DNA from: Marinibacterium anthonyi
GTDB lineage: Bacteria; Pseudomonadota; Alphaproteobacteria; Rhodobacterales; Rhodobacteraceae
Assembly: GCA_003217735.2 (NCBI GenBank)
Contig: CP031585.1
Location: forward strand, 5,225,501-5,289,500
Direction: 5' to 3'
DNA: 64,000 nucleotides
In this document: positions 13,262 through 25,880 of the stretch, piece after piece
Numbering within the stretch: the first letter of the stretch is position 1
How the letters are laid out: every line of letters begins with the position of its first letter
Notes under the pieces: model-generated
Seen by the model: the letters and a program-made list of their open reading frames with translations, nothing else
Database searches by the model: none
What the model was told of the DNA's origin: nothing
Translations under genes and position numbers: made by a program

Positions 13262-13777
13262 TCAGGCGGCGAGGTTCAGGTGCAGCACGTGGTGCTGCCC
13301 CACGTCGGGACGGCTTTCGCTGTCCGACATCGCGGCGCGCATCATCTTCAGGCCCACGACGACCGGATTGCCATCCGACACCCAGACCGACGCTTCGCGC
13401 GGCGTGAACCGCAGCAGCGTGACCTTGGGGTCCTCGCGGCCTTCCTCGAACCAGGCGGCGGCGGCGAAGCTCCACAATTCGTCAAGCTTTTCCGCGCTGT
13501 CATAGGTCACCAGGCTTCCTCTCAGGCTGGCGTGAAAGCCATCGCCGGGGGATTGCACCGTGAACCGGGCCTCGGCCCCGTGGCCGATGGCGGCCACGAG
13601 ATCGGTGTCCGAGGAGGTGATGAACCAGAGGCTTTCCGTCTCGGGATCGGTGAAATGCGTCATCGGCTGGGGATGCTGATCCGCATCCGCGACCCACAGC
13701 ATTCCGGTCCGGCTGTCAGACAGCTTGTCCCAGAGTTGCGCCTTGGCTTCCACCGAATCTTCGGTCTTCCAGGCCAT
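13262..13777 (-). CDS. Pyridoxamine 5'-phosphate oxidase-fold general stress protein
   Basis: This 171-residue soluble protein has the split-barrel flavin-binding fold typical of general stress protein 26-like proteins. Recognisable parts are a GMLWVADADQHPQPMTHF beta-strand pair and an ESLWFITSSDTDLVAA segment, followed by a W-rich C-terminal part. It probably binds FMN, F420 or haem rather than acting in vitamin B6 synthesis. It lies three bases downstream of csbD and should share its EcfG-type promoter at 14097-14121. Confidence 0.88.
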   Translation of the reverse strand: MAWKTEDSVEAKAQLWDKLSDSRTGMLWVADADQHPQPMTHFTDPETESLWFITSSDTDLVAAIGHGAEARFTVQSPGDGFHASLRGSLVTYDSAEKLDELWSFAAAAWFEEGREDPKVTLLRFTPREASVWVSDGNPVVVGLKMMRAAMSDSESRPDVGQHHVLHLNLAA

Positions 13778-13780
13778 GGC

Positions 13781-13978
13781 TCACACCGAAGCGAGGATGT
13801 CGTCGACCATCTTGCGCGCTTCTTCCTTGGTCTTGCCATAGCGCTGCTGAAGCTTGCCTTCGATCTGTTCGCGATCGCCCTTGGCCTGTTCCAGTTCGTC
13901 ATCGGTCAGGTCGCCGTAGCTTTCGCGCAGCTTGCCTTTGATTTCGGTCCATTTACCCTGAATCTGATCTTTATTCAT
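13781..13978 (-). CDS. CsbD family stress protein
   Basis: The 65-residue, highly charged protein is a full-length CsbD-type protein: it opens with MNKDQIQGKWTEIKGKL and carries the GDREQIEGKLQQRYGKTKEEA repeat halves. Its biochemical function is unknown; the family is induced in general stress. It is first in a two-gene unit with the PPOX-fold gene. An EcfG-type promoter lies about 120 bases upstream, with an inverted repeat (14015-14040) in the leader. Confidence 0.93.
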   Translation of the reverse strand: MNKDQIQGKWTEIKGKLRESYGDLTDDELEQAKGDREQIEGKLQQRYGKTKEEARKMVDDILASV

Positions 13979-14014
13979 GACGTCACTCCTTTTCGGTTTG
14001 CGTCTTTGAATGAG

Positions 14015-14040
14015 CGTGTCCCGAAGACGTTCAGGACACG
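14015..14040. repeat. Inverted repeat in the csbD leader
   Basis: Seven-base arms CGTGTCC and GGACACG are separated by 12 bases between the csbD start and its EcfG-type promoter. They could form an RNA hairpin in the 5' leader or bind a regulator. Confidence 0.4.
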
Positions 14041-14096
14041 TGGTGATCGGGTGGGAACAGCGGACTGCGCCGCTATCCCCTTGCTTCTGATAAATA

Positions 14097-14121
14097 AACC
14101 CGCAGCCAACCGAGATGTTCC
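14097..14121 (-). promoter_or_regulatory. EcfG-type promoter for csbD
   Basis: On the minus strand the sequence is GGAAC (14121-14117), 16 bases, then GGTT (14100-14097). This matches the EcfG consensus GGAAC-N16/17-CGTT with one -10 mismatch, and has the same form as the phyR promoter. Confidence 0.65.
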
Positions 14122-14155
14122 GACCATTCGCGAAACCTTGCGGAATTTTGCCGCG

Positions 14156-15628
14156 TCAGACGATATCCTCGGTCACGCCGGGCAGATCGGTGTGATATTC
14201 GGCCATCGCGTCAGGGGCATGCGGCACCAGGAAGCCCGAACGATTTTCGGGCCGGCGCAGGCCGTTACGGGCGATCTCGGCATCCCACCAGGGCTGCAGG
14301 GTCTCGATGTGCTGCGCTTCGGGCGGCAGCGGATCCTGCCACCAGTGGCGGAAAATCGCGGCGCGCAGGGCGGCGACGCGGTCGGGTGCTTCAAGACGGA
14401 TCGCGGCTTCGGTATCCCAATGCATCGACCGGCCGTTCAGGTTGGCGGATCCGACCATGGCGAAATCGGTGTCCGTCACCAGCAACTTGTTGTGCACGTA
14501 GATGATGGGCGAACCCGCCAGCACCGAAGCTGTTTCGCGGGCGGCGAAACGCGGCTGAACCGGGCTGGCGAAGGTGGCACGGGGGCCGAACGCCTGCTGG
14601 ACATGCGATATCGCTTCGGACTGGCGGGCCATGCCGAAGCGGGCGTCAAGTTCGCGCGATCCGTCAAAGGCCACGTCATCGGGCAGGGCCGGCAGGACCA
14701 CCATCAGGTGCAGGTCCGGATTGGCCAGCGCGGCATCGGCCAGGGCGCCGGAAATCACCGACGACCGCAGGAACTGCGTTTCGATATAGATCAGGTGGCG
14801 GGCGCGGGCGAAGGCGGCCAGGTGATCCTCTTCGATTTCGTGGCGTACGGTGCGCGGCGACAGAAAGGGGAACTGGACCCGACGCGGCGCCGACAGGGTG
14901 CGGCGCAGGTAGCGGGTGGGGCCGGGGTCGGCCTTGCCGGCGGTCACGTCCAGCATTTCGTCCAGGTGCCGGCGCGCCTCCAGCGCCTCGGGGCCACGGA
15001 TCAGCAGCTGCACGTCGGACCAGGTTTGGTCCGCCGGGCGGTCGTGATCCGGCGTGTCCCAGCGTCGTTCGTTCAGGTCGAGCCCGCCGATATACAGCAC
15101 CTCGTCGTCGATCACGGCGAGCTTCTGGTGATGGCTGACAGGGTAAAGCCCCGGCAGCCGGTCGGGATCCAGCCGCACGGCCTGCAGCTTGCGCCGCAGC
15201 CCGCGGATCTTGCGCAGTTTTTCCTGCCATTTCATCACCACCACCGGCAGCAGGCCCAGCCAGGGCAGCAGCCCGGCTTCGGCGGCGTGCAGATTGGCGA
15301 TGACCTGCAACTGCCCCCGTTCGGGCCGGGCGACTTCCCACAGCGCGCCGGCCTGGCGCTTGGTCTGCCAGGTCAGCTCGTGCAGGTCGGTGGCGATCAC
15401 CGGGTCGAAATCGCTGACGATCAGGTGAATGCGCACGCCACGCTTCAGCGCGTCTTCCAGCAGGTCGAACCAGGTGTCGCCCACGGCCCGACCTTCGGGG
15501 CTGCGCAGTTTCGTGCGCATGTCGAAGATGCGGAACCCGGCGGTGATATCCTTTTTCGCGGCAAGAACGGCGCGTTCGAAGGCCGGCCAGGCTTCTTGCG
15601 CGGTGATCAGGACCTCGAAGTCCGGCAT
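14156..15628 (-). CDS. Phospholipase D family protein
   Basis: The 490-residue protein has two HKD motifs: H167-Q-K169 with D174, and a second one (VHNKLLVTD, then GSANLNGRS) near residue 390. This is the layout of phospholipase D and related phosphatidyltransferases. It has no clear signal peptide; a hydrophobic stretch lies near residues 119-132. It begins 17 bases after the histidine kinase stop and may be the last gene of nepR-ecfG-kinase-PLD. A role in membrane lipid turnover under stress is plausible but inferred from context. Confidence 0.88.
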
Positions 15629-15645
15629 GTCCCTACCCTGTCATG

Positions 15646-17367
15646 TCAGTGGGGTGCGTTGGCGTCGAAATCGGCGCGCTTGAACGTCACTTCATAGCGA
15701 TAAGTCCGCTCGTCCTCGGCTTGTTCCGCACGACCTTCCAACTGGCTGATGAAGGCCCGCATCAGGCGCGTGCCAAGGCCGCCCATCTCCTCGGTATCAA
15801 AGGACGCTTCGGGCATGACCCGCTGGCCCACCGTGTTTTCGATGCAGAACCGCACGGTTCCGTCGTCGCGCGCCTCGAGCCAGACGGTGATCCGCGCCGG
15901 GCCGCCATCGGGCCGGCCGGCATATTTCACCGCGTTGGTCATCGCCTCGGAGAACAGCATCGACAACGGCACCGCCTGGTCGGGGAACAGGTGCACCTCG
16001 TCCAGGTGGGTTTCGATTTCCAGCCGCGCCTCGGGTCCGACCGGGGCAAGGTCCGCCAGCAGGGCGCGGATCATCTCGGATGCATCGATCGTCGTGGTTT
16101 CCGGCCCGGTGTAAAGCGACCGGTGCAGCATGGCGAGCCCGCGCACCCGGCGCTGCAGATCGCCCAGGATGCGCTTGGCCTCCTGGCTGCGGGTCAGGCG
16201 CGACTGCATGTTCATGATCGACGCGATAAGCTGCAGGTTGTTCTTTACCCGGTGGTGCACCTCGCGCAGCAGGACTTCCTTGTCGCGAAGATCCTGCTCC
16301 TGCTTGGCCTCGGCCTGGGCCAGCAGAAGGATCATCCGGTTGAATGCGGTTTCGGCGGATTTCAGTTCGTCGGGCGGGCGGTCCAATTCGATCCGGCCCT
16401 TGGTCAGACGGCCAAGCGCGTGTTGCCGCATGGCCGAGGCCAGCGCATGCACGTGGCGGATCACCAGCCGCTGGACCCCGAAGAAGGCCACGCCCATGCC
16501 CGCCAGCCACATCAGCAGCGGGAAGGCGACGGACAGGCGCGCGCGCCAGATCGCGTGATCGTTGGCGGCCAGTTCGGCCGGCCAGCTGCCGACGATGGCG
16601 GCCGATCCCGGCACGATCTGGGAAATGGCAAAGACCCGGCGTTCGCCGGAATTGGTCCAGGCCTGAAAGGTTTCGCCGATGCGATCGAACAGCGCCGGGG
16701 GCCGGATGCCGGCCGGCATGTAGGCGTCGGCGGTCTCGGACCCGCCGGTGGCCGAAATCACCTGTCCATCCGCATTGATCGCCGACAGGTGCAGGCCGCG
16801 CGCCGTGGCATCGTCGTTCAGCAGCGCATCCGCGATCCGGCTGGGGATCGAGATCATCACGTAACCTTCGACGTCGCCTTCGCGCTGGATCGGTTCGGCC
16901 ACCACGACCACGGGAATGCCGGTGATCCGGCCCTGGGCGACCAGTTCCATGTAGGGGCCGCCGCTGTCCTTGATGCGCTTGAAGGTTTCCGAATCCGCAA
17001 GGCTGATGCCCGACCCGCGCGAAGCACAGGTCACTTCTCCGTCACGGTCGGCAAAGCCGGCATAGGCGAACCGGGGATGGAACCTTACGAATTCGGCCAA
17101 TAGCTGGTCGCATTCGTTCTGAAGGCGTTCCATCCCCACGGCGGACATGCCCTGCGCCGCGCCAAGCGCTTCGCGGATCAGTTCGCGTTCCGCCGCGGCG
17201 GCCGATTCCGTCTCAGCCAGCAGGGCGGCCTGGTTCAGACGCTCGGCCTCGGAAATCACCGCGCGTGTCTGGTACACGGATATCAGGCCCAGCGGCAGGA
17301 TCGCCAGGGTAATAAGGACCACAAGCTGGCCGGTCAGGCCGCGCAAGGGCGCCAGCAATCCTTTCAT
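15646..17367 (-). CDS. Membrane histidine kinase, HWE/HisKA_2 type (PhyK-like)
   Basis: This kinase probably phosphorylates PhyR. The 573-residue protein has an N-terminal membrane helix (about 13-32), a periplasmic Cache-like sensor region (about 35-275), a second helix (about 279-298) and a HAMP-like segment. The dimerisation domain has the phospho-acceptor region at EVHHRVKNN (H371) and is followed by a C-terminal ATPase domain with SEAMTNAVKYA as the N-box and a GGLGTRL glycine box. It follows ecfG by 18 bases, the usual genomic partnership of the general stress response. The signal sensed is unknown. Confidence 0.9.
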   Translation of the reverse strand: MKGLLAPLRGLTGQLVVLITLAILPLGLISVYQTRAVISEAERLNQAALLAETESAAAAERELIREALGAAQGMSAVGMERLQNECDQLLAEFVRFHPRFAYAGFADRDGEVTCASRGSGISLADSETFKRIKDSGGPYMELVAQGRITGIPVVVVAEPIQREGDVEGYVMISIPSRIADALLNDDATARGLHLSAINADGQVISATGGSETADAYMPAGIRPPALFDRIGETFQAWTNSGERRVFAISQIVPGSAAIVGSWPAELAANDHAIWRARLSVAFPLLMWLAGMGVAFFGVQRLVIRHVHALASAMRQHALGRLTKGRIELDRPPDELKSAETAFNRMILLLAQAEAKQEQDLRDKEVLLREVHHRVKNNLQLIASIMNMQSRLTRSQEAKRILGDLQRRVRGLAMLHRSLYTGPETTTIDASEMIRALLADLAPVGPEARLEIETHLDEVHLFPDQAVPLSMLFSEAMTNAVKYAGRPDGGPARITVWLEARDDGTVRFCIENTVGQRVMPEASFDTEEMGGLGTRLMRAFISQLEGRAEQAEDERTYRYEVTFKRADFDANAPH

Positions 17368-17385
17368 TCCCTGGTGCTCCGCAGA

Positions 17386-17937
17386 TCAGGCCGCGCGTGT
17401 GGGAGAAGACACGATCCCCGCAGTCACGGAATCGGTGAGGTCGAGTCCGTTGTCCTCGTCCAGATGCATCAGTTCAGCCAGACGTGCGCGTGCACGGTTG
17501 ACCCGGCTCTTGATGGTCCCGACCTTGACGCCGCACATGTCGGCCGCTTCCTCGTAGGAAAAGCCGCTGGCGCCAACCAGGATCAAGGCTTCGCGGTGCT
17601 CTTCCTTCAGCACGGCAAAGGCGTCGTTGAAATCCCGCATCTGCAGGCGCCCGTCGTGGTCGGGCTTTTGCGACAGGCTCTGGGCGTGTGAGCCATCGGC
17701 ATCCTCGACCTCGCGCTGACGTTTTCGGTGGTGCGAATAGTACGTGTTCCGCAAGATCGTGAACAGCCAGGCACGCATGTTCGTCCCGGCTTCGAAACTG
17801 TCTATGTTGCTCCATGCCTTGACCAGAGCGTCCTGGACCATGTCGTCGGCCAGGGCGGAATTTCGGGTCAGACTGAAGGCAAAGGCGCGGAGCGACTTGA
17901 TGTGCTCCACAATCTCGTCACGCGGATTAGCCGCCAT
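17386..17937 (-). CDS. ecfG: General stress ECF sigma factor EcfG
   Basis: This 183-residue sigma-70-family protein has region 2 (about residues 10-80, with ADDMVQDALVKAW) and region 4 (about 115-165, with SYEEAADMCGVKVGTIKSRVNRAR). It should direct polymerase to GGAAC-N16/17-CGTT promoters, several of which surround it. ATG 17937 is chosen because GGAGG lies eight bases upstream; an earlier in-frame ATG adds five residues. It overlaps the nepR 3' end by 11 bases, so sigma and anti-sigma factor are translationally coupled. Confidence 0.95.
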   Translation of the reverse strand: MAANPRDEIVEHIKSLRAFAFSLTRNSALADDMVQDALVKAWSNIDSFEAGTNMRAWLFTILRNTYYSHHRKRQREVEDADGSHAQSLSQKPDHDGRLQMRDFNDAFAVLKEEHREALILVGASGFSYEEAADMCGVKVGTIKSRVNRARARLAELMHLDEDNGLDLTDSVTAGIVSSPTRAA

Positions 17938-18127
17938 TTCGAGAGCCTCCAACCTTGGATTTGGACGCTTGTTGTTCCGACTGTCCGCCTGTGTCGGCCG
18001 CGCGCAATTCGGCCAGCAGGTTTGTGAACCTGTCGGGTATATCCTCGTTCAGAACATCGTCGAACGCCCGTTTGAGATTGGCGTCGATCATATGCTCCAC
18101 CCTAGATGCGCGATTTTTTTCCGTCAT
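17927..18127 (-). CDS. nepR: Anti-sigma factor NepR
   Basis: NepR binds and inhibits EcfG until phosphorylated PhyR sequesters it. The 66-residue protein has the characteristic core: a basic N-terminal tail, then IDANLKRAFDDVLNEDIPDR and FTNLLAELR helices, and a disordered C-terminus. It is the first gene of the leftward unit, its stop overlaps ecfG, and it is divergent from phyR. Its own promoter (18173-18197) is a perfect EcfG match, giving autoregulation. Confidence 0.93.
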   Translation of the reverse strand: MTEKNRASRVEHMIDANLKRAFDDVLNEDIPDRFTNLLAELRAADTGGQSEQQASKSKVGGSRNGG

Positions 18128-18165
18128 GTCTTTCTGCGCTCAACCATTTATTTTTCTCCGCGACG

Positions 18166-18190
18166 GGAACGAAACGCCGTCTGTCAGGTT
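18166..18190 (+). promoter_or_regulatory. EcfG-type promoter for phyR
   Basis: Plus strand: GGAAC (18166-18170), 16 bases, GGTT (18187-18190), about 40 bases upstream of the phyR ATG. One -10 position differs from consensus. It is interleaved with the nepR promoter on the other strand. Confidence 0.7.
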
Positions 18191-18197
18191 TGGTTCC
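18173..18197 (-). promoter_or_regulatory. EcfG-type promoter for nepR-ecfG
   Basis: Minus strand: GGAAC (18197-18193), 16 bases, CGTT (18176-18173), a perfect consensus match. It overlaps the divergent phyR promoter almost completely. Confidence 0.85.
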
Positions 18198-18229
18198 GTA
18201 GATAGTCCAAAAAAAGTGAGACAAACAGG

Positions 18230-19042
18230 ATGACCACAGCCTCTACCGGAGATCTTGCCGCTCAGGTCGGGAGCAATCTTCCCTATCTGCGCCGCTATGC
18301 GCGTGCTCTGACCGGGGCGCAGGACCGTGGTGACAAGTATGCGATGGCAACGCTGGAAGCGATCCTTGCGGATCCCGAGGTCTACGACAAGGACCTGCCT
18401 GCGAAAGCGGCGCTTTTCCAGGTCTTTCACACGATCTGGTCATCGACCGGCGCCGCATTCAGCGATGGCGAAACCGGCCTGGCCGCCCGCGCGCAGGCGC
18501 ATCTGGCGAACCTGACGAACGACACCCGCGAAGCGCTGCTGCTGCACACGATCGAAGAATTCTCGTTCGAGGACCTCGCGTCGATCCTGAGCGTGAGCGA
18601 AGCGGAAGCCAGGGAGCTTGTCGACATAGCCTATACCGAGATGTCCAAGTCGGTGTCCGGCCGCGTCATGATCATCGAGGACGAGGCGATCATCGCCATC
18701 GACCTGGAAGCGATCGTATCCGAGATGGGTCACCAGATCACCGGCGTGGCGCGCACCGAAGACGCCGCCATCGCCCTGGCCGACCAGGAAAAGCCCGACC
18801 TGATCCTGTCCGACATCCACCTGGCCGACAATTCCAGCGGCATCGACGCGGTGAACAGGATCCTGGCCAAGCATGGCGCCGATTGCCCGGTGATCTTCAT
18901 CACCGCCTATCCCGAACGCCTGCTGACCGGCGAAGGCCCGGAACCGGCGTTCCTGATCTCCAAGCCCTACAGCGAAGACCAGGTCCGGTCCGCCGTCAGC
19001 CAGGCGATGTTCTTCGCCTCGACGGAAACGCTGAAGGCCTGA
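18230..19042 (+). CDS. phyR: General stress response regulator PhyR
   Basis: PhyR is the anti-anti-sigma switch: phosphorylation exposes its sigma-like domain, which binds NepR. The 270-residue protein has an N-terminal EcfG-like domain (about residues 8-138) and a C-terminal receiver (about 143-265). The receiver has acidic residues E150/D151, phospho-acceptor D195, T225 and K245. It is divergent from nepR-ecfG and closed by a strong terminator at 19071. All key receiver residues are present. Confidence 0.97.
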   Translation: MTTASTGDLAAQVGSNLPYLRRYARALTGAQDRGDKYAMATLEAILADPEVYDKDLPAKAALFQVFHTIWSSTGAAFSDGETGLAARAQAHLANLTNDTREALLLHTIEEFSFEDLASILSVSEAEARELVDIAYTEMSKSVSGRVMIIEDEAIIAIDLEAIVSEMGHQITGVARTEDAAIALADQEKPDLILSDIHLADNSSGIDAVNRILAKHGADCPVIFITAYPERLLTGEGPEPAFLISKPYSEDQVRSAVSQAMFFASTETLKA

Positions 19043-19070
19043 ACCGGACATATCATCACCTGTTTGCAGA

Positions 19071-19094
19071 GGGGGCCGCGTGCCCCCTTTTTTT
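19071..19094 (+). terminator. Terminator after phyR
   Basis: A GGGGGC/GCCCCC stem with a five-base loop is followed by seven T residues, 28 bases after the phyR stop. Confidence 0.85.
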
Positions 19095-19178
19095 CTCTGG
19101 CTTTTTGTCCCGCTTCCGACGGACGCACGCCCTGTGATCACACAGGTCACGACGGGATCAAACGCCACCCCCGGCACC

Positions 19179-19204
19179 AAAAAGGCCCCGCTCGAAAGCG
19201 GGGC
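19179..19204 (-). terminator. Terminator after dps
   Basis: An eight-base-pair perfect stem (GCCCCGCT/AGCGGGGC) with a CGAA loop lies at 19185-19204. Read on the minus strand it is followed by five T residues (19183-19179). It is about 50 bases past the dps stop. Confidence 0.8.
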
Positions 19205-19256
19205 GAGGTAGCAGGCAGAAGATGCCTACGGGACAAAGGTGTGCTGCGCGCCCGGC

Positions 19257-19751
19257 TTACTTGGCGATGGCGCGCAGCATCCATGCGGCGGTCTCGTGGA
19301 ACGCGCTGCGGGCGGTGGCCAGGTCGTCGGTGACCGGGTCCTTGCGGCCATCCACCAGGTCGACCAGCGCATGCAAACGATGGGCGACACGTTCGTGATC
19401 CGATGCCAGGTCCTCGACCATGTCGGCGGCGGTCATGTCCACGCCAAGATCCTTGATCTTCGAATGGTCCATGATCTGCGCCATCGTCGACGGGGCCAGT
19501 TCACCCAGCGCGCGGATGCGTTCGGCCAGGACGTCGGCGGCGGCGAACATGTCTTCGTACTGTTCCTCGGTCAGCTTGTGGATCGAATAGAACAGCGGGC
19601 CTTCCACGTTCCAGTGATAGGCGTGGGTCTTGAACACCAGGCGGTAGGTATCCGCCAGAACGCCGGTCAGGGCCTGGGCAATCGCCTTCGTGTCACGCAC
19701 GCCGGTCGAAACCTTGTCGGACGAAGGAACGACTTCCAATGCATCTTTCAT
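19257..19751 (-). CDS. dps: Dps family DNA-protection/iron-storage protein
   Basis: Dps dodecamers oxidise and store iron and protect DNA. The 164-residue protein is a four-helix bundle with the ferroxidase signature region HAYHWNVEGPLFYSIHKLTE (His, then Glu/Asp in EEQYEDMF). The start has an AGGAG site seven bases upstream. Its EcfG-type promoter (19785-19809) is a perfect consensus match reaching into the 3' end of the upstream gene, so dps can be transcribed independently under stress. Confidence 0.93.
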   Translation of the reverse strand: MKDALEVVPSSDKVSTGVRDTKAIAQALTGVLADTYRLVFKTHAYHWNVEGPLFYSIHKLTEEQYEDMFAAADVLAERIRALGELAPSTMAQIMDHSKIKDLGVDMTAADMVEDLASDHERVAHRLHALVDLVDGRKDPVTDDLATARSAFHETAAWMLRAIAK

Positions 19752-19784
19752 GGGTCTTCTCCTTTTAATTCCTATTATATTACA

Positions 19785-19809
19785 AACGCATAGACCCTAT
19801 CCGGGTTCC
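19785..19809 (-). promoter_or_regulatory. EcfG-type promoter for dps
   Basis: Minus strand: GGAAC (19809-19805), 16 bases, CGTT (19788-19785), a perfect match 34 bases before the dps ATG. The -35 element lies inside the last codons of the acetolactate-synthase-like gene. Confidence 0.85.
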
Positions 19810-21458
19810 CCGTTTCCCGGATTTTTCGTTCCCGGCAGCCCGCCACCGGCGTCGTGATCCACCGCGACCGAGATCAGCGTGGGTCCGGCCGCGTCGCGGG
19901 CGGCCTGCAGCAGTTCGGGCAGGTCGTGCAGCCCTTCGGCACGGGCATGCACCCAGCCAAAGGCCCGGGCCAGCGCGTCCCAGCCGGGATTGCCGAAGCG
20001 AAACGCGGGGCCGTCCTGGCCGCCGTGTTCCTCGATCAGACGCAGCGCGCCGTCGTCCCACACCATGACGGTCAGGTTCAGCGACAGCCGCGCGGCGGTT
20101 TCCATTTCCTGCACGTTCATCATCAGGTCGCCGTCGCCGCAGATCGCCAGGGTGCGGCCCCGGGTCTTCAGCCGGGCCGCCGCGATGGCGCCGGGCAGGG
20201 CCAGGCCCATGCCGGCCAGCCCGTTCGGGACAATCACCTGCCCGGCCCGCCGGGGCGAGACATGGCGCGCGATCCACAGCTTGTGCAGACCGACGCCCGA
20301 CAGCACGGTATCCTCGTGATCCAGATCGTCCGAGATCACCCGGCAGATATCCTGCGGCGCAATCGGGCCGGTCCGGTCTTCGCTGCGTTCCCGGCGCAGG
20401 GTGCGGCGCATGGCGTCGCGGGTCGCCATGAAGGTCGGCACATCGGCCCAGCGTTCCCCGTCCAGCCGGTCACGCAGCCCGGAAATCGCCGCGTCGATAT
20501 CGCCGGCGATCTGGTCGGCCAGCCGCCAGCCGGCGTCGGCGGGAATGATCTCCGGCCCCACGGCGACGACGGGGATACGACCGTCACAGGTGAAATCGGC
20601 CGCCGACAGTTCCACCGGGTCGACACCGATGGCGACGATCAGGTCCGACGCCTCGACCGCCAGGTCGATGTAATCGCCATCGGGCTGGCCGATGGTGAAC
20701 AGCGTCTGCGGATGATCGGGGGCCAGGATGCCCTTGGCCATGAAGGTCGTGGCGACCGGCAGGCGGGTGGCTTCGGCGAAATGGCGCAGCGTCTCGCTGG
20801 CGCCGCCGCGCAGGACACCGGCGCCGGCCAGGATCATCGGGCGATCCGCCGCGCGGATCGTGCGGGCCGCTGCGTCCAGCGCATCGGGCGCCGGGCACGG
20901 CGGCAGGGGCTGCGTCATCGCGATGGGCGGGCGTTCGGTCTCGCCCTCGGCCACATCCTCGGGCAGGCACAGGTGCACCGCGCCGGGCCGGCCCGACACC
21001 GCCTGCCGCCAGGCCTCGGCCACGCAGGCGGGCACGGCGTCGGGGTCCAGGATCATCCGGCTGAACTTGGTCACCGGCCGGAACAGGGTTTCCAGGTCCA
21101 GCATCTGGTGACTGTCCCGCCCGATCCGCCGCCGGGCGCCCTGCCCGGTGATGGCGATCAGCGGCACGTGGTCGAGGTTGGCGTCGGCCACCCCCGTCAC
21201 CAGGTTTGTGGCCCCGGGGCCCAGCGTCGCCAGGCAGGCGGCGGGCGCGCCCGTCATCCGGCCCTGGACCGATGCCATGAAAGCGGCGGCCTGTTCGTGG
21301 CGGCACAGGATGAATTCCATGTCCGACGCCGCGATGGCCTGCATCAATGCCGTGGTTTCCTCTCCCGGTACGCCGAAGATGGTTCTGACACCCACCGCCT
21401 GAAGCGATGCGATCAGTGCCTCGGCGCCGGTGCGGGTCTCGGTCATCGTGTCTTTCAT
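19797..21458 (-). CDS. Thiamine-diphosphate enzyme, acetolactate synthase large-subunit-like
   Basis: The 553-residue protein has the three-domain layout of TPP enzymes. An N-terminal pyrimidine-binding domain carries the catalytic Glu (FGVPGEET) and the middle domain is FAD/nucleotide-type. The C-terminal pyrophosphate domain has GDGDLMMNVQEMETA as the TPP-Mg motif. ATG 21458 has GGAAGG upstream; further upstream frame is unlikely coding. No regulatory small subunit is adjacent, so this may be a catabolic or substrate-divergent member rather than the biosynthetic IlvB. I cannot assign the substrate. Confidence 0.85.
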   Translation of the reverse strand: MKDTMTETRTGAEALIASLQAVGVRTIFGVPGEETTALMQAIAASDMEFILCRHEQAAAFMASVQGRMTGAPAACLATLGPGATNLVTGVADANLDHVPLIAITGQGARRRIGRDSHQMLDLETLFRPVTKFSRMILDPDAVPACVAEAWRQAVSGRPGAVHLCLPEDVAEGETERPPIAMTQPLPPCPAPDALDAAARTIRAADRPMILAGAGVLRGGASETLRHFAEATRLPVATTFMAKGILAPDHPQTLFTIGQPDGDYIDLAVEASDLIVAIGVDPVELSAADFTCDGRIPVVAVGPEIIPADAGWRLADQIAGDIDAAISGLRDRLDGERWADVPTFMATRDAMRRTLRRERSEDRTGPIAPQDICRVISDDLDHEDTVLSGVGLHKLWIARHVSPRRAGQVIVPNGLAGMGLALPGAIAAARLKTRGRTLAICGDGDLMMNVQEMETAARLSLNLTVMVWDDGALRLIEEHGGQDGPAFRFGNPGWDALARAFGWVHARAEGLHDLPELLQAARDAAGPTLISVAVDHDAGGGLPGTKNPGNGEPG

Positions 21459-21677
21459 GAAAGTCCTTCCGTCAAAGCCTGCCGCGCGGGATCCCGCCGA
21501 TGTGTTCGGCGCCATATCGCTCGTGATGCCCGAGAAGGGCGAATCAGGCGGGTTCGGCACGCTGGGTGGAACCCGTCGCGATCCGGGCGGCTTTCGTGCG
21601 CAGGGGTCGGGGCGGCCCGCGTCTTTGGACCGCCGGAATGCAAGCGGGCGGCGCCATCCGGCGACCGCCCGTCTTCG

Positions 21678-21845
21678 TTACCAGGATCCGCGCACCAGCC
21701 GGACGACCAGCGTCGCCAGGAACAGGACAAGGAACAGGACGAAAAGAACCTGCGCGATCCCCGAGGACGCCGCCGCGATTCCGCCAAAGCCGAACAGTCC
21801 CGCCACAAGCGCGACAACGAAAAAGATCAGGGCCCAGTACAACAT
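21678..21845 (-). CDS. DUF1328 small membrane protein
   Basis: The 55-residue protein begins MLYWALIFFVVALVAG and has two hydrophobic segments separated by GFGGIAAASSGIAQ, which is the full signature of the DUF1328 (YtjA) family of tiny stress-associated membrane proteins. AAAGGA precedes the ATG. An EcfG-type promoter (21881-21906) lies 36 bases upstream. Biochemical role unknown. Confidence 0.9.
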   Translation of the reverse strand: MLYWALIFFVVALVAGLFGFGGIAAASSGIAQVLFVLFLVLFLATLVVRLVRGSW

Positions 21846-21880
21846 CGTTACATCCTTTCACATTGGTCACCTGAAGGCTC

Positions 21881-21906
21881 AACGTGAAGGCGAACGCAGT
21901 GGTTCC
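21881..21906 (-). promoter_or_regulatory. EcfG-type promoter for the DUF1328 gene
   Basis: Minus strand: GGAAC (21906-21902), 17 bases, CGTT (21884-21881). Both boxes are perfect and the spacer is within the accepted range. Confidence 0.75.
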
Positions 21907-21919
21907 CGATTTTTGCCGT

Positions 21920-21945
21920 GGAACTTTTCGGAGACCCACGACGTT
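21920..21945 (+). promoter_or_regulatory. EcfG-type promoter with no evident gene
   Basis: Plus strand: GGAAC (21920-21924), 17 bases, CGTT (21942-21945), a perfect match pointing right. Downstream there is only a weak 41-codon ORF (21993-22118, no ribosome site) before the convergent receiver gene, so a small RNA or antisense transcript is possible. Confidence 0.6.
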
Positions 21946-22102
21946 ACTGCTCCGAACCGCGCACAGGCGCGTCTCTGCCGGGCACCGCGTAGATGTCTGT
22001 TTTATTACCTCGTAACAGAAGGTTACTCGGTTTGCCCGGCCAATCAACGCAAACGCGGGAGTTCCCTTGCCGACGATCCTGGCCCTTTCGAACCGCCCGC
22101 GC

Positions 22103-22118
22103 TCAGCTCATGAGCTGA
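22103..22118. repeat. 16-base perfect palindrome at the end of the receiver-like gene
   Basis: TCAGCTCATGAGCTGA is its own reverse complement and includes the stop codon of the leftward receiver-like gene. It could form a short hairpin in transcripts from either strand or be a protein-binding site. Confidence 0.5.
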
Positions 22119-22468
22119 CGGATCGCGCGGTTCAGATCGTCTTCGGCATAGGGTCGCGACAGATGCGCGATCCCCAGCGGCTCCACCTCTGGTGGAGGAC
22201 CGTTCAGCACCAGGATCCGCGCGCCTCTCAGGTGTTGTTCCATCAGCAGGTCCTGCGCCGTGTCGGCGTCGGGCGTCACGCCCAGCACCACAAGCTGCGG
22301 CCTGTGACGGGTTTCGGCCAGGATGGCCTGCGCGTGTTCGACCGACCGGATGTGAACCACCGGCCCCAGGTGGAACCGCTCGAACGCGTCCCTGAGGTCA
22401 TCCGCTTCAACGAAATTCTCGACAATGATCAAAGTCCCGATGTCGGCACCAAGGCCTGCATCTTCCAT
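22103..22468 (-). CDS. Receiver-like protein lacking the phospho-acceptor (pseudoreceiver)
   Basis: The 121-residue product has the beta-alpha pattern and spacing of a response-regulator receiver domain, but the signature residues are replaced. E17/N18 stand where the acidic pair should be, G63 replaces the phospho-acceptor Asp, N89 replaces Thr/Ser and R105 replaces the conserved Lys (in HLSRPY). It has no output domain. ATG 22468 is preferred because GGAGAG lies upstream. It probably acts by protein-protein contact without phosphorylation; a partner in the stress pathway is inference. It is divergent from the Crp-type gene across 79 bases. Confidence 0.75.
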   Translation of the reverse strand: MEDAGLGADIGTLIIVENFVEADDLRDAFERFHLGPVVHIRSVEHAQAILAETRHRPQLVVLGVTPDADTAQDLLMEQHLRGARILVLNGPPPEVEPLGIAHLSRPYAEDDLNRAIRQLMS

Positions 22469-22547
22469 GTGACTCTCCGCTGGGTTTTCAGCTTGATGCC
22501 ACACGTCCTGCCCCCAGCGCATTAAACCATGACATAGGACAACTCGT

Positions 22548-23276
22548 TTGACGATTGACTGCGCGAACTGCCCCCTTCGACGACATGACATGTTCTCTCC
22601 GGTGTCCAAGGCCACGCTGGCCTTCATCCAGAAGTTCAAGACCGGCGAACTTGTCGCCCAACCCGGAACCCAAATCCTGACGGAACAGGCGTCGTCTTCA
22701 CAGTTGTTCACGGCATTGGACGGCATGGGCGTCCGCTACAAGACAACCCGCGACGGCCGGCGGCAGGTGGTGGGATTTGTCCTGCCCGGCGATTTCGTCG
22801 GGCTGCAATCGGGCGTCATGGATGTCATGCGCCATTCGGTCGAGGCCACGACCGAGATGCGGCTGTGCGTGTTCAACCGGACGGACCTGTGGTCGCTGTT
22901 CAAGTCGCAGCCCGACCTGGCGTTCGACCTGACCCATATCGCCGCGAACGAGGAACACCTGCTGGGCGAGGCGCTGACCGCCATGGGCCAGATGGACGCC
23001 CAGGCCAAGATCGCGTGGGCGCTGTACCGGTTCGACCAGCGGCTGAGCGCCGTGGGTCTGCGCAAGAACGGCCGGGTGCCCCTGCCCTATCGCCAGCAGG
23101 ACCTGGCCGATGCGCTTGGCCTGTCGCTGGTGCACACCAACAAGACGCTGGCCAAGCTGAAGTCCGGCAACATCCTGACCTGGTCCGACGGCTGGTTGTC
23201 GGTGTCGGACCTGCCCGGCCTGGCCAAGCTGTGCGAAATCGATACCGAAGCCAGCTGCGAACGTCCGCTGATCTGA
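22548..23276 (+). CDS. Crp/Fnr family transcriptional regulator
   Basis: The 242-residue protein has an N-terminal cyclic-nucleotide-binding-type beta-roll (about 20-130), a long dimer helix and a C-terminal winged helix-turn-helix. The recognition helix region reads YRQQDLADALGLSLVHTNKTLAKL. The TTG start is chosen because it retains the CANCPLR N-terminus typical of this subgroup and has AGGAC upstream; the next ATG is residue 15. Only one CxxC pair is present, so a canonical Fnr iron-sulfur cluster is unlikely. Ligand unknown. Confidence 0.88.
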   Translation: MTIDCANCPLRRHDMFSPVSKATLAFIQKFKTGELVAQPGTQILTEQASSSQLFTALDGMGVRYKTTRDGRRQVVGFVLPGDFVGLQSGVMDVMRHSVEATTEMRLCVFNRTDLWSLFKSQPDLAFDLTHIAANEEHLLGEALTAMGQMDAQAKIAWALYRFDQRLSAVGLRKNGRVPLPYRQQDLADALGLSLVHTNKTLAKLKSGNILTWSDGWLSVSDLPGLAKLCEIDTEASCERPLI

Positions 23277-23387
23277 TCCCCTGGTCTGATCAGCCGTCCG
23301 ATCCCCGATCCGATCCGGGTCTGGCGCCGCTTTGGCGCCGGCCCGCAAGCGATCCGCACCTGATCTGGCCCTGATCTGGCCTTTCCC

Positions 23388-23422
23388 CAAAAGCAAACGC
23401 CCGGCACCAATGGCCGGGCGTT
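23388..23422 (-). terminator. Hairpin terminator between crp and the PLDc_N-like gene
   Basis: A perfect ten-base-pair stem (AACGCCCGGC/GCCGGGCGTT, 23396-23422) with a seven-base loop lies between convergent genes. Read on the minus strand it is followed by a T-rich stretch, so it best serves the leftward 64-residue gene; it may act for crp too. Confidence 0.65.
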
Positions 23423-23468
23423 GATCTGTAAATCTGTCGGTCGGGCGCGCCGCAGGGGCGCGACCGGG

Positions 23469-23663
23469 TCACACGTGCGCGGTGCGCGACCGGGGACCAG
23501 CGACAAGCCAGATGATGAAGCCGATCAGCGGCAGGATCAGCACCAGAAGGCACCACAGCACCTTGGAGCCGGTCGATGCACCCGAACTGACGATGGACAC
23601 GATGGCCCAGATGTCGAGGATCAGCAGGATCAGGCCGCCAATGCCGGTAATTTCCAAACCCAT
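23469..23663 (-). CDS. Small PLDc_N-type membrane protein
   Basis: The 64-residue protein consists of two hydrophobic helices (about residues 9-27 and 35-54) with the W-A-I-V-S-I and PLIGFIIWLVAGPR pattern. This is typical of the phospholipase-D-nuclease N-terminal (PLDc_N) family of short membrane proteins. It has a TCTCCT-complement ribosome site close to its ATG. It lies in the stress island, but I did not find a clear EcfG box just upstream. Confidence 0.82.
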   Translation of the reverse strand: MGLEITGIGGLILLILDIWAIVSIVSSGASTGSKVLWCLLVLILPLIGFIIWLVAGPRSRTAHV

Positions 23664-23727
23664 GTCATGTCTCCTTATTAATGGGGTGTGGCGCGGAACG
23701 CCCCGCGCCGGGGTGGTTCGCTTCGGG

Positions 23728-23991
23728 TTACTGATCGCGCAGCGCGTCGATCAATTCGTCCTTGCTCATGGTCGAGCGGCAGTCGATGTCCAGTTCGCGC
23801 GCCCGTTCGTACAGGTCGGCCTTGGTCCAGTCTTCGTAGGGCGACGCCTTGCCACCTTTCACGGACGGGGACATGTCGTCGTTGGCCTGGGCATTCGCGA
23901 TCGCCGCCGCCTTCGACTTGCCGTACCCTTCGTCCAGAAGCGCCTCATATGTATCGTCGTCCTTGATGGACGACCCGTGCCGGTCACCCAT
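23728..23991 (-). CDS. Small Rho_N/SAP-like stress protein (DUF7218-like)
   Basis: The 87-residue soluble protein has a DEGYGKSKAAAIANAQA segment followed by WTKADLYERARELDIDCRS and a MSKDELIDALR helix. The latter resembles the N-terminal helix-extended-loop domain of Rho and SAP-like nucleic-acid-binding modules. ATG 23991 has GGAGG seven bases upstream and overlaps the stop of the preceding 72-residue gene by eight bases, giving coupling. It probably shares the EcfG-type promoter at 24237. Confidence 0.78.
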   Translation of the reverse strand: MGDRHGSSIKDDDTYEALLDEGYGKSKAAAIANAQANDDMSPSVKGGKASPYEDWTKADLYERARELDIDCRSTMSKDELIDALRDQ

Positions 23992-24202
23992 GGCCAACCT
24001 CCAGCAGTGCGCTTTGGACAATGTCCGGCAGAACGTCGACGTCCAGCGCGCAGGCCGAAATCAGGTCGGCATCCGAATTGCCGCATTTCTTCCAGTCCGC
24101 GCCGCTTTCTCCCATGATCCCCGCGACCAGTATCGCGCCGATCAGCACGGCCACGCGGGGTTCGAAACGGATCGCTTTCCCTGTCGATGTCGCAGACGGC
24201 AT
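23984..24202 (-). CDS. Small single-pass membrane protein of unknown function
   Basis: A 72-residue ORF with a basic N-terminus, one hydrophobic segment (about residues 17-31) and a polar C-terminus holding two Cys. AAGGA precedes the ATG by nine bases, a perfect EcfG-type promoter lies 35 bases upstream, and its stop overlaps the next gene. These three features support a real gene although I recognise no family. Confidence 0.62.
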   Translation of the reverse strand: MPSATSTGKAIRFEPRVAVLIGAILVAGIMGESGADWKKCGNSDADLISACALDVDVLPDIVQSALLEVGHG

Positions 24203-24236
24203 CGTTTTTTTCCTTTTTGATTTCCGTTGCTTGAAG

Positions 24237-24261
24237 AACGCCGACCTGTCCGTCAGGTTCC
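24237..24261 (-). promoter_or_regulatory. EcfG-type promoter for the two small genes at 23728-24202
   Basis: Minus strand: GGAAC (24261-24257), 16 bases, CGTT (24240-24237), a perfect consensus match. Confidence 0.8.
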
Positions 24262-24380
24262 CTTGAAACAGGAAATTTTTGCCCAATGGGCCAAAGGATC
24301 CACCGCCAGACGCCGAGGGAACGCTGGCGGCATTACCTCGGTCCGACAACGCCAGTAGACGCGATTGGTTCCAGAAAATC

Positions 24381-24405
24381 GGAACCGATCGCGATCCGGG
24401 GCGTA
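24381..24405 (+). promoter_or_regulatory. Probable EcfG-type promoter for the FNT gene
   Basis: Plus strand: GGAAC (24381-24385), 16 bases, CGTA (24402-24405), one mismatch in the -10, ending 30 bases before the start codon. Confidence 0.55.
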
Positions 24406-24434
24406 TGCCTGTGGCAAGACGCAAGGAGCGACGC

Positions 24435-25307
24435 ATGACGCAGGAACAATCCGACGACCTCATTCGCGAAGAACAGGAAGAGGAAGCCGTCGAAGAGGCG
24501 GCGATGCTGTCGCCGCGGCTGATCTTCGAGGCGATCCGCCGGAACGGCGAAGAGGAGTTGAACCGGCCGGTCCGCGCGCTGTGGAATTCGGGGATCACGG
24601 CGGGGCTGCTGATCTCGTTCTCGGTCCTGGGCGAGGCGATGCTGCGCGCCCATCTGCCCGATGCGCCCTGGTCCCATATCATAGAGAACTTCGGCTATAC
24701 CTTCGGCTTCCTTCTGGTGATCCTGGGACGGATGCAGCTGTTCACCGAAAACACGATCACCACGGTCGTGCCGGTGATGACGTCGCGCGGGATCGGCCCC
24801 TACCTGCGCACCGCGCGGCTGTGGACCGTGGTGCTGGCGGCCAACGTGGTCGGCGCATTCATCGTCGCCACGTTCCTGGCCTATGCGCCCGTGCTGTCGG
24901 ACGACGTGTTCCAGGCGATGACCGAACTCAGCGAACATGCGACATCGCTGCCGCCTCTCGAAGGCCTGGCCCGCGGCATTCCCGCCGGCGTGCTGATCGC
25001 CGCGCTGGTCTGGATGCTGCCTGTGGTCGAAACCAGCGAGGTGGCCGTGATCCTGCTGTTCACCTGGCTGATCGCGCTGGGGGATTTCACCCATATCGTC
25101 GCCGGGTCGGTGGAAATGGCGTTTCTGGTTGTGCAGGGCAAGCTGGCCGCGGGTCCCGCCGTGTTCGGCTTTTTCATACCGGTGCTGGCGGGCAACGTGC
25201 TGGGCGGCACGGTGGTGTTCACCATGCTGGCCTGGGGGCAGATCCGCCCCGAGGTGGCGGAAGAGGTGGCCGAAAAGGAAGACGACAAAACGCATGCCGG
25301 CGCCTGA
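24435..25307 (+). CDS. Formate/nitrite transporter (FNT) family channel, YfdC-like
   Basis: FNT proteins are pentameric anion channels. This 290-residue member has a long acidic N-terminal tail (residues 1-35) typical of the YfdC branch, then six hydrophobic segments with SGITAGLLISFSVLGEAM, a GRMQLFTENTITTVVPV segment and an LAGNVLGGTVVF loop. ATG 24435 is preferred over an earlier in-frame ATG because AAGGAG sits directly upstream. Transported anion unknown; YfdC-type proteins are not proven formate channels. A likely EcfG promoter precedes it. Confidence 0.88.
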   Translation: MTQEQSDDLIREEQEEEAVEEAAMLSPRLIFEAIRRNGEEELNRPVRALWNSGITAGLLISFSVLGEAMLRAHLPDAPWSHIIENFGYTFGFLLVILGRMQLFTENTITTVVPVMTSRGIGPYLRTARLWTVVLAANVVGAFIVATFLAYAPVLSDDVFQAMTELSEHATSLPPLEGLARGIPAGVLIAALVWMLPVVETSEVAVILLFTWLIALGDFTHIVAGSVEMAFLVVQGKLAAGPAVFGFFIPVLAGNVLGGTVVFTMLAWGQIRPEVAEEVAEKEDDKTHAGA

Positions 25308-25326
25308 AGTTCCGACAGAAATTTAC

Positions 25327-25351
25327 GGAACGGATGGGGGTCATGGCGGTT
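25327..25351 (+). promoter_or_regulatory. EcfG-type promoter for the PRC-barrel gene
   Basis: Plus strand: GGAAC (25327-25331), 16 bases, GGTT (25348-25351), the same one-mismatch form seen at phyR and csbD, 61 bases before the ATG. Confidence 0.65.
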
Positions 25352-25412
25352 CTCTCTCCACAAGGCCCGACACGCCGGGTCGCCACAAAGACCAACTGGA
25401 AAGGAGTTTCTC

Positions 25413-25880
25413 ATGCTTCGCCTTCTGACAGCATCGACGCTCGCACTTGCCATCGCCGCACCTTCGTTCGCGGCCTCGACAGCGACCGAAACCACCGCCA
25501 CATCCGACATTCACGACCCCATCATCATGGACGAGAAGTGGGACTTCAGCATCACCAAGCTGGACCTGCTGAAATCGGAACCCGAAGGCTACAAGAAGAT
25601 CGACGCCAGCTCGGTATCGGCCGAGGATCTGGTGGGCCTGCGCGTCTATGACGCCAACAAGGAATGGGTCGGCGAAGTCGACAACCTTATCGTGACCCCC
25701 ACGGGCGACGTCGTTGCCGCGATCCTGGGCGTCGGCGGCTACCTTGGCATCGGCGAAAAGGATGTCGTCGTCGATTTCAGCACCCTGATGCTGACCAGGA
25801 ACATGGATGACGACAGCCTGCGCATCTATGCCGACGTGACCAAGGATCAGCTCAAGGACCTGCCGGCCTACGACTCCTGA
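25413..25880 (+). CDS. Exported PRC-barrel domain protein
   Basis: The 155-residue protein has a signal peptide (about residues 1-20, ending SFAAS) and a single PRC-barrel domain (about 62-140). The domain shows the pattern LVGLRVYDANKEWVGEVDNLIVTP followed by an AAILGVGGYLGIGEKDVVV strand. Periplasmic PRC-barrel proteins of this size are common stress-induced envelope proteins in alphaproteobacteria; function unknown. AAAGGAG precedes the ATG, with an EcfG-type promoter upstream and a terminator downstream. Confidence 0.88.
   Translation: MLRLLTASTLALAIAAPSFAASTATETTATSDIHDPIIMDEKWDFSITKLDLLKSEPEGYKKIDASSVSAEDLVGLRVYDANKEWVGEVDNLIVTPTGDVVAAILGVGGYLGIGEKDVVVDFSTLMLTRNMDDDSLRIYADVTKDQLKDLPAYDS

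Follow-up and report, generated by a model that had tools for sequence, protein, structure and literature searches.

An interlocked pair of EcfG-type promoters between nepR and phyR in a dense cluster of candidate EcfG targets of Marinibacterium anthonyi

In the general stress response of Alphaproteobacteria, the anti-sigma factor NepR holds the extracytoplasmic function (ECF) sigma factor EcfG, phosphorylated PhyR removes NepR, and both the nepR-ecfG and the phyR units are usually EcfG-dependent (PMC4814048, PMC12148442). The two units are usually divergent, each behind an EcfG promoter, and their co-regulation has been suggested to keep the needed stoichiometry (PMC4814048). Partner-switch circuits of this type work through the balance between a sigma factor, its anti-sigma factor and the anti-anti-sigma factor, a ratio that cells must hold while all three are autoregulated. 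We analyzed a stretch of 64,000 nucleotides of Marinibacterium anthonyi (Rhodobacteraceae; hereafter the window), and in it a 12.6-kb island at positions 13262-25880, in a host genome of 6.81 Mb. A first-pass annotation, made from the letters of the window, had placed nepR, ecfG and phyR in the middle of this island, and Pfam agreed with these gene calls. As in the known alphaproteobacterial PhyR-NepR-EcfG locus, nepR, ecfG and phyR lie together, PhyR consists of sigma-like and receiver domains (Pfam), EcfG-type promoters precede both the divergent phyR and nepR-ecfG units, and a HisKA_2 kinase gene is adjacent. The departures from the usual locus are that the promoters interlock instead of standing back to back, and that EcfG sites are densely clustered around the genes. 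Such clustering is of a known type, and the apparent novelty is the interlocked autoregulatory promoter. A 2018 study calls itself the first work on PhyR in Rhodobacterales (PMC5830050), and titles and abstract openings in the open PMC literature mentioned neither an interlocked EcfG promoter nor an island of this kind, which is weak evidence of novelty, as subscription papers lie mostly outside that collection.

The element between nepR and phyR reads GGAAC-GA-AACG-N10-GGTT-TG-GTTCC on the + strand (18166-18197), forming a 32-bp near-palindrome in which a phyR promoter is read rightward and a nepR promoter leftward. The boxes of these two antiparallel EcfG promoters alternate, each -35 box being followed, after 2 bp, by the -10 box of the opposite promoter, and the whole lies in a divergent spacer of 102 bp. 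The first-pass annotation had listed the two promoters separately (18173- and 18166+); both are real, but their interlocking went unmentioned. We consider the promoter geometry as described to be near certain. Transcription would be expected to start about 6-7 nt past each -10 box, which places the two starts at the outer ends of the element, within or at the -35 box of the opposing promoter.

The same arrangement was examined in the best 80 PhyR loci from named genomes, with up to 10 kb on either side, accepting SGTW or NGTT as the -10 box and any offset of 0-12 between the promoters. Sixty-one loci were interlocked, 14 carried only the frame GGAAC-N20-25-GTTCC, five had neither, and none was back to back. 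The offset was 7 in 50 of the interlocked loci, 8 in six and 6 in five. When a strict -10 box was required on both strands, both sites were present in 41 of the 80 loci, 40 of them interlocked with offsets of 6-8; carriers of the strict element include Phaeobacter italicus, Marivita and Tropicibacter. The five loci with neither sites nor frame all belong to Rubellimicrobium, as do three of the 14 frame-only loci, including that of Rubellimicrobium thermophilum (L073); a 2025 paper that treats this genus predicts promoters at R. thermophilum loci (PMC12148442). In Rhodobacteraceae the element measures 31-33 bp and is usually common to both units. Its eight central columns carried 0.02-0.18 bits each, and pairing across the centre was at chance level (1.02 of 4 pairs). 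Because the centre is unconstrained and pairs only by chance, the dyad reflects the promoter boxes and not one symmetric operator.

We then determined how the element is distributed in and outside the family. A strict degenerate pattern for the element matched 63 of 295 family genomes (reversed control, 8 of 295), and a phyR match (E <= 1e-30) was found in 140 of an equal number drawn in the same way. Of 64 copies, 61 stood 29-93 bp upstream of a phyR match, one was on another contig (the phyR match begins at a contig end), one was 3.8 kb from phyR, and one was elsewhere. An order-level search added nothing, since all 149 genomes drawn belonged to the same family (element in 39, reversed control in 10). 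From the class, 385 genomes were drawn, five of which fell in the family; among the remaining 380, the element occurred in one, against 7 for the reversed control, and is thus not above chance outside the family. This sole copy was on a different contig from its genome's phyR match.

Reading the 300 bp upstream of phyR gave a corresponding picture. In 43 family loci, including that of the window, 34 were interlocked, five had a phyR site only, three a nepR-side site only, one had none, and none was back to back; ecfG or nepR lay opposite phyR in 42 of them. These loci came from the genome search and partly coincide with the named ones, so that the two family samples are not independent. Outside the family, where phyR was found in 60 of the 380 genomes, 27 loci were read: 12 were back to back (one reassigned by hand), six had a site on the phyR side only, five on the other side only, four had none, and truly interlocked promoters were found in 0 of 27. 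The gap between the -35 boxes of the 12 back-to-back loci was 6-9 bp in nine and 28-41 bp in three. Sixteen of the 27 loci had ecfG opposite phyR at a distance of no more than 1.5 kb, and 11 of these were back to back. Outside the family, back-to-back promoters are thus the more frequent form in the sampled loci, and the one seen where both promoters were recognised; the topology differs in Rhodobacteraceae and probably changed there.

We think it rather probable that the region is a general-stress-response control locus joined to a cluster of EcfG targets, in which initiation at nepR and at phyR is mutually exclusive and couples their outputs. Under stress, a PhyK-like kinase would give rise to phosphorylated PhyR, which would draw NepR off EcfG and allow EcfG-RNA polymerase to transcribe the island. 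At the interlocked element, a polymerase bound in one orientation would block the other, because two polymerases could not occupy it together; each initiation would therefore yield either the antagonist PhyR or the inhibitor together with the sigma factor (NepR-EcfG), and the two outputs would compete once EcfG is active. Such exclusion would limit and link the two branches of the positive autoregulatory loop, and might also reduce noise. Judged from the promoter geometry, mutual exclusion of the two directions is likely, while a ratio- or noise-setting role is plausible only. We hold more tentatively, at somewhat less than an even chance, the full proposal that a 32-bp palindromic ECF promoter has replaced the back-to-back form as an either/or switch which sets the ratio and damps noise, and to which this genus adds an EcfG-driven structured small RNA. 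An either/or geometry specific to one family would make the ratio question approachable at a single promoter.

The nearest described analogues are the sigma70-dependent bidirectional promoters that Warman, Grainger and colleagues studied in E. coli, where a pseudo-symmetric sequence lets polymerase bind either way, as is predicted here. Opposed polymerases are reported to exclude each other there, with competition only at raised activity, and the constrained transcription is less noisy (PMC12825309). The overlapping two-orientation geometry is shared by the element of the window, where exclusion would probably follow from the geometry. The E. coli promoters have a shared symmetric -10 element and starts mostly 18, 10 or 23 bp apart (PMC12825309); the window element lacks a shared symmetric -10, having separate -10 boxes with 10 bp between them, each start presumably at the other promoter's -35 box, and starts about 30 bp apart. 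A further difference is that the sigma factor here is an ECF factor and the outputs are antagonists in the control loop of that same factor.

Several observations weigh against the proposed either/or switch. Nineteen of the 80 named loci fail even the looser interlock test, and the conservation of the boxes in the alignment of the named loci is inherent in the search pattern. At least one promoter went unrecognised in 15 of the 27 outside loci, so that the arrangement is known for part of them only, and the element probably arose once, so that the many genomes bearing it are not independent events. No competition at basal activity was reported for the five E. coli bidirectional promoters tested (PMC12825309). 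In Rhodobacter sphaeroides, membrane stress is reported to raise ecfG (RSP_1272) mRNA in a PhyR-dependent manner with phyR mRNA unchanged, and some other stresses to raise phyR 2-3-fold without ecfG (PMC5830050); because the two mRNAs respond separately, a strict 1:1 balance is disfavoured, and the data suggest that biased competition or extra promoters fit better. The element itself was seen in L097, L103 and L109, relatives of R. sphaeroides, rather than in strain 2.4.1. These E. coli basal activities, too low for competition, and the differing R. sphaeroides responses, along with the short divergent spacer, also favour the view that two promoters were simply squeezed together and that their overlap is meaningless beyond co-activation by EcfG. 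We regard this view as possible but on the unlikely side. The offset is fixed at 6-8 bp in 61 of 61 interlocked named loci although 0-12 was permitted, while the distance from the element to phyR varies from 29 to 93 bp across 61 genomes; as the spacer is thus free to change, the fixed offset speaks against mere squeezing, as does the finding that outside loci hold the same pair back to back.

The palindrome could instead serve mainly as the operator of a dimeric regulator, such as the neighbouring Crp-family protein, its likeness to EcfG promoters being secondary. The dyad is nearly perfect in some species (for example L097), and the Crp-family gene of the island has matches in 41 of the 80 named loci. 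Each arm, however, fits the EcfG consensus at 16/17 spacing, asymmetric variants such as L119 (-10 CGTA on one strand only) retain both promoters, and only 3 of the 64 copies in the 295 family genomes are not beside phyR. Together with the centre of the element, which is unconstrained and not symmetric beyond chance, this makes a dimer operator improbable. For the island as a whole, the corresponding doubt is that it is an ordinary neighbourhood in which GC-rich DNA yields chance matches to the strict pattern GGAAC-N16/17-CGTT. Genome-wide this pattern indeed barely outnumbers its reversed control (113 against 101), and the loose pattern GGAAC-N16/17-[CG]GT[TA] is rarer than its own (318 against 572), so that a lone site elsewhere means little. 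We nevertheless consider chance a highly improbable account of the island, being contradicted by a 36-fold local excess and by the conservation of the sites in congeners and more distant relatives, described below.

A scan of the window with the loose pattern gave 14 sites, 11 of them within the island. All nine promoters of the first-pass annotation were present at their coordinates and strands (marked in Table 1), and its count missed two sites of the same form, 24348- and 25289-. The three matches outside the island (40631-40656 -, 4542-4566 + and 55845-55870 +) fall inside called genes or at their edges and appear to be chance matches. To compare density with the rest of the genome, we used total counts for the genome, 11 sampled 20-kb stretches and the surroundings of 90 of the 113 strict sites, namely every one on the main contig (C1) outside the window; genes were called by codon usage. 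Seven strict sites in the island against 0.197 expected from the genome rate correspond to the excess given above (P 2e-9), and 11 loose sites stand against 0.57 expected (P 3e-11). The 1763 bases of intergenic DNA in the island held six strict sites where 0.14 would be expected from the C1 intergenic rate, a 44-fold excess, or 36-fold without the unconserved 24348-; a similar density in random intergenic DNA, which would have undone the claim of clustering, was thus not found on this chromosome. The remark that spacers are always 16 or 17 fits the sites, but this spacing is part of the search pattern and gives no independent evidence within the window. Selectivity was seen instead in the 80 named relatives: 340 CGTT sites had a spacer of 16 or 17, each of nine further spacing classes (10-11, 12-13, 14, 15, 18, 19, 20-21, 22-23 and 24-25) yielded 6-29, and the reversed pattern yielded 25; with the loose -10 box the counts were 463, 19-131 and 174, respectively.

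Conservation was assessed in two congeners, L031 (a Rhodobacteraceae metagenome-assembled genome, the nearest named relative in the scan, with a PhyR 90% identical) and L162 (from G002). All nine original sites had a counterpart in both, and eight aligned in both; the FNT (formate/nitrite transporter) site aligned at the -10 box in L031, and in L162 an unaligned CGTA-form site stood 124 bp before the FNT start. The pattern of the first-pass annotation was passed by nine of the nine sites in L162 and by seven in L031, where the DUF1328 and 24237 sites have TGTT. With 25289- kept in both congeners and 24348- in neither, 10 of the 11 island sites had counterparts in both.

Window proteins were then matched against the 80 named phyR loci (tblastn, E <= 1e-5). 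Matches were found for ecfG in 80 loci, the histidine kinase in 67, nepR in 65, DUF1328 in 55 and, as noted, crp in 41 (kinase and Crp matches may not be orthologues), followed by PLDc_N (36), the phospholipase D-like gene (35), csbD (28), DUF7218 (19), the receiver-like gene (17), FNT (16), dps (14), the thiamine-pyrophosphate (TPP) enzyme (5), the pyridoxamine-phosphate-oxidase-like protein (4) and the PRC-barrel gene (4). Gene order around phyR varied. Within 10 kb of phyR, and with the nepR/phyR promoter excluded, these loci held 248 CGTT sites against a mean of 21.4 over ten wrong-spacing pairs; at least one such site was present in 67 loci and at least three in 48. The recurrent families of open reading frames (ORFs) behind sites in relatives include DUF1328, PLDc_N, csbD, DUF7218, dps and FNT. 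These comparisons indicate that a clustered EcfG regulon around phyR recurs in many Rhodobacteraceae with its gene order shuffled. In agreement, EcfG is reported to control csbD directly in Sphingopyxis (PMC7083833), and in Sphingomonas the genes reported as EcfG-dependent include one for a PRC-barrel protein and others for ferritin-like DNA-binding proteins (PMC6599016).

Taken together, density, congener counterparts and recurrence in relatives support, at the level of sequence, the earlier inference of a clustered EcfG regulon, and the first-pass annotation was factually correct, with most of its inference holding as well. Its further claim that most of the island is under EcfG extends to 14 of 17 genes only when gaps of up to 64 bp are allowed within operons; no EcfG site could be tied to the acetolactate-synthase-like, receiver-like and Crp genes. 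From -10 box to start codon, the distance was 29-61 bases in seven of eight genes checked and 118 for csbD. For a family whose stress response is little studied, the dense, recurrent island supplies a set of probable EcfG targets.

The site at 21920+, previously described as an orphan, is real and kept in both congeners, but it is followed by a candidate structured RNA (21952-22045). The predicted fold of this segment had z-scores of -4.11, -6.87 and -4.10 in the three congeneric sequences, 0 of 200 shuffles being as good, and the three folds were alike despite differing letters. Nine of 26 pairs were changed on both sides, which 0 of 500 shuffles equalled, although with three sequences only, from which the structure was itself derived, this count is flattering. 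The candidate is present in a single copy in the genome and gave no Rfam match up to E 1. A search of 198 family genomes, with filters that lose weak matches and with the two congeners not in the sample, returned only its own genome, and among 82 sources, the three model sequences apart, the strongest match had E 0.005 (L103, 261-352), followed by 33 with E 0.06-9.8. A 32-nt DNA match was found in G013, and the equivalent stretches of L032, L053, L054 and L055 folded no better than shuffles. Against an RNA product, a longer cut to 22070 gave a z-score of only -2.34 (3 of 200 shuffles as good), ORFs are listed at the candidate, one from TTG 22067 antisense to the receiver-like gene, and the hairpin may be the terminator of the convergent receiver-like gene; a T-run after the hairpin was seen on neither strand when read from the sequence.

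As an alternative, the orphan site was considered as the relic promoter of a lost small protein. At 30 of 45 DUF1328 sites examined an opposite site lay within 150 bp (gaps of 2-72 bp), and in these 30 pairs the partner preceded a cluster of ~96-aa ORFs in 16 and PLDc_N in seven; neither family follows the orphan site in the genus of the window. Searches of the window, L031 and L162 (E <= 0.01) gave no remnant of the ~96-aa cluster, and the idea was rejected. A small EcfG-dependent RNA is our best guess for the product of this site and is preferred over a relic promoter. It would resemble ReC64 of Rhizobium etli, an EcfG1-dependent non-coding RNA beside phyR, in being read from an EcfG promoter in the neighbourhood of phyR (PMC3892343); ReC64, unlike the candidate, lies downstream of phyR-tcrY, and the candidate was found only in one genus. 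A fixed back-to-back geometry for all divergent EcfG pairs of the island was also rejected, given the 2-72 bp range of the 30 DUF1328 pairs and the absence from the congeners of 24348-, one half of the 24348-/24381+ pair. The recurrent ~96-aa small protein opposite DUF1328 (for example L037:11133-11420) gave no Pfam match for the one tested, though its cluster looks YqjD/ElaB-like.

Strict sites elsewhere on the main contig suggested that the regulon is not confined to the island. Among the 90 sites, 49 were inside genes and 41 intergenic, with a gene start within 300 bp downstream of 31 of the latter; the intergenic share of bases was 9.5% in a 220-kb sample. Over all 100 stretches examined, 20 of 87 wrong-spacing controls were intergenic; the eleven sampled 20-kb stretches taken alone gave 3 of 30. 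Since 41 of 90 compares with 20 of 87, scattered true targets are likely, roughly twenty or more and fewer than the bare 41. The nine proteins tested behind scattered sites were ExoD, DUF3309, AI-2E transporter, TerB, DJ-1/PfpI, a peptide-chain release factor, a baeRF/host-attachment protein, an amidoligase and single-stranded DNA-binding protein (SSB).

Table 1. Predicted features of the island (window positions; n, one of the nine promoters of the first-pass annotation)
Feature	Position	Strand	Basis and remarks
Pyridoxamine-phosphate-oxidase-like stress protein	13262..13777	-	Pfam PF16242; 3 bp behind csbD
csbD	13781..13978	-	Pfam CsbD
EcfG site of csbD (n)	14097..14121	-	-10 GGTT; leader ~112 nt; pattern scan, congener alignment
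Phospholipase D-like gene	14156..15628	-	Pfam PLDc_2, PLDc; 17 bp behind kinase gene
HisKA_2 histidine kinase, dCache sensor, PhyK-like	15646..17367	-	Pfam
ecfG, ECF sigma factor	17386..17937	-	Pfam sigma70 r2 and r4_2
nepR, anti-sigma factor	17927..18127	-	Pfam PF18557, E 8.2e-14
Interlocked bidirectional EcfG promoter, nepR (-) / phyR (+)	18166..18197	both	GGAAC-N2-AACG-N10-GGTT-N2-GTTCC
phyR promoter (n)	18166..18190	+	-35 GGAAC, spacer 16, -10 GGTT; aligned in both congeners
nepR-ecfG promoter (n)	18173..18197	-	-35 GGAAC, spacer 16, -10 CGTT; aligned in both congeners
phyR, sigma-like domain + receiver	18230..19042	+	Pfam PF22029, PF22233, PF00072
dps	19257..19751	-	Pfam Ferritin
EcfG site of dps (n)	19785..19809	-	Overlaps end of upstream gene by 13 bases; in congeners
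Acetolactate-synthase-like TPP enzyme	19797..21458	-	NCBIfam NF006187, 507.1 vs cut-off 509; no EcfG site of its own
DUF1328 small membrane protein	21678..21845	-	Pfam PF07043
EcfG site of DUF1328 (n)	21881..21906	-	-10 TGTT in L031
"Orphan" EcfG site (n)	21920..21945	+	Back to back with DUF1328 site; aligned in both congeners
Candidate structured RNA	21952..22045	+	5-bp hairpin, then long hairpin
Receiver-like protein, 121 aa	22103..22468	-	Assigned by reading the sequence; convergent with orphan transcript
PLDc_N small membrane protein	23469..23663	-	Pfam
DUF7218 protein	23728..23991	-	Pfam
72-aa membrane-like protein, first gene of possible DUF7218 / PLDc_N operon	23984..24202	-	ORF
EcfG site of small-gene operon (n)	24237..24261	-	-10 TGTT in L031
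Further EcfG-like site	24348..24372	-	Absent from both congeners; perhaps chance
EcfG site of FNT gene (n)	24381..24405	+	-10 CGTA; CGTA site before FNT in both congeners
FNT family gene	24435..25307	+	Pfam PF01226
EcfG-like site, antisense into FNT 3' end	25289..25313	-	Aligned in both congeners
EcfG site of PRC-barrel gene (n)	25327..25351	+	Pattern scan, congeners
PRC-barrel gene	25413..25880	+	Pfam PF05239

The families of the island backed by Pfam are CsbD, PhyR, NepR, ECF sigma, ferritin-like (Dps), DUF1328, FNT, PRC, DUF7218 and PLDc_N. The best NCBIfam match of the kinase was PhyK (186.7 bits, under the cut-off of 750), and the phospholipase D-like gene presumably belongs to the operon of the kinase gene. 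Neither the 72-aa membrane-like protein nor the receiver-like protein had an NCBIfam match, and the longer ORF of the latter had no Pfam match. The FNT gene probably starts at ATG 24435 rather than at the listed TTG 24279, which would place the promoter inside the gene; the later start fits both the promoter and the coding score. In L077 a similar pair of sites (15375- and 15438+) also stands between the FNT and PRC-barrel genes. Between phyR and dps, a sub-threshold Rfam match to suhB/MmgR (19170-19241, - strand, E 0.63) may be a mere terminator hairpin. A Rhodobacteraceae-type phyR island was also borne by L053, a record titled Enemella evansiae, an actinobacterial name; the record is probably mislabelled or contaminated.

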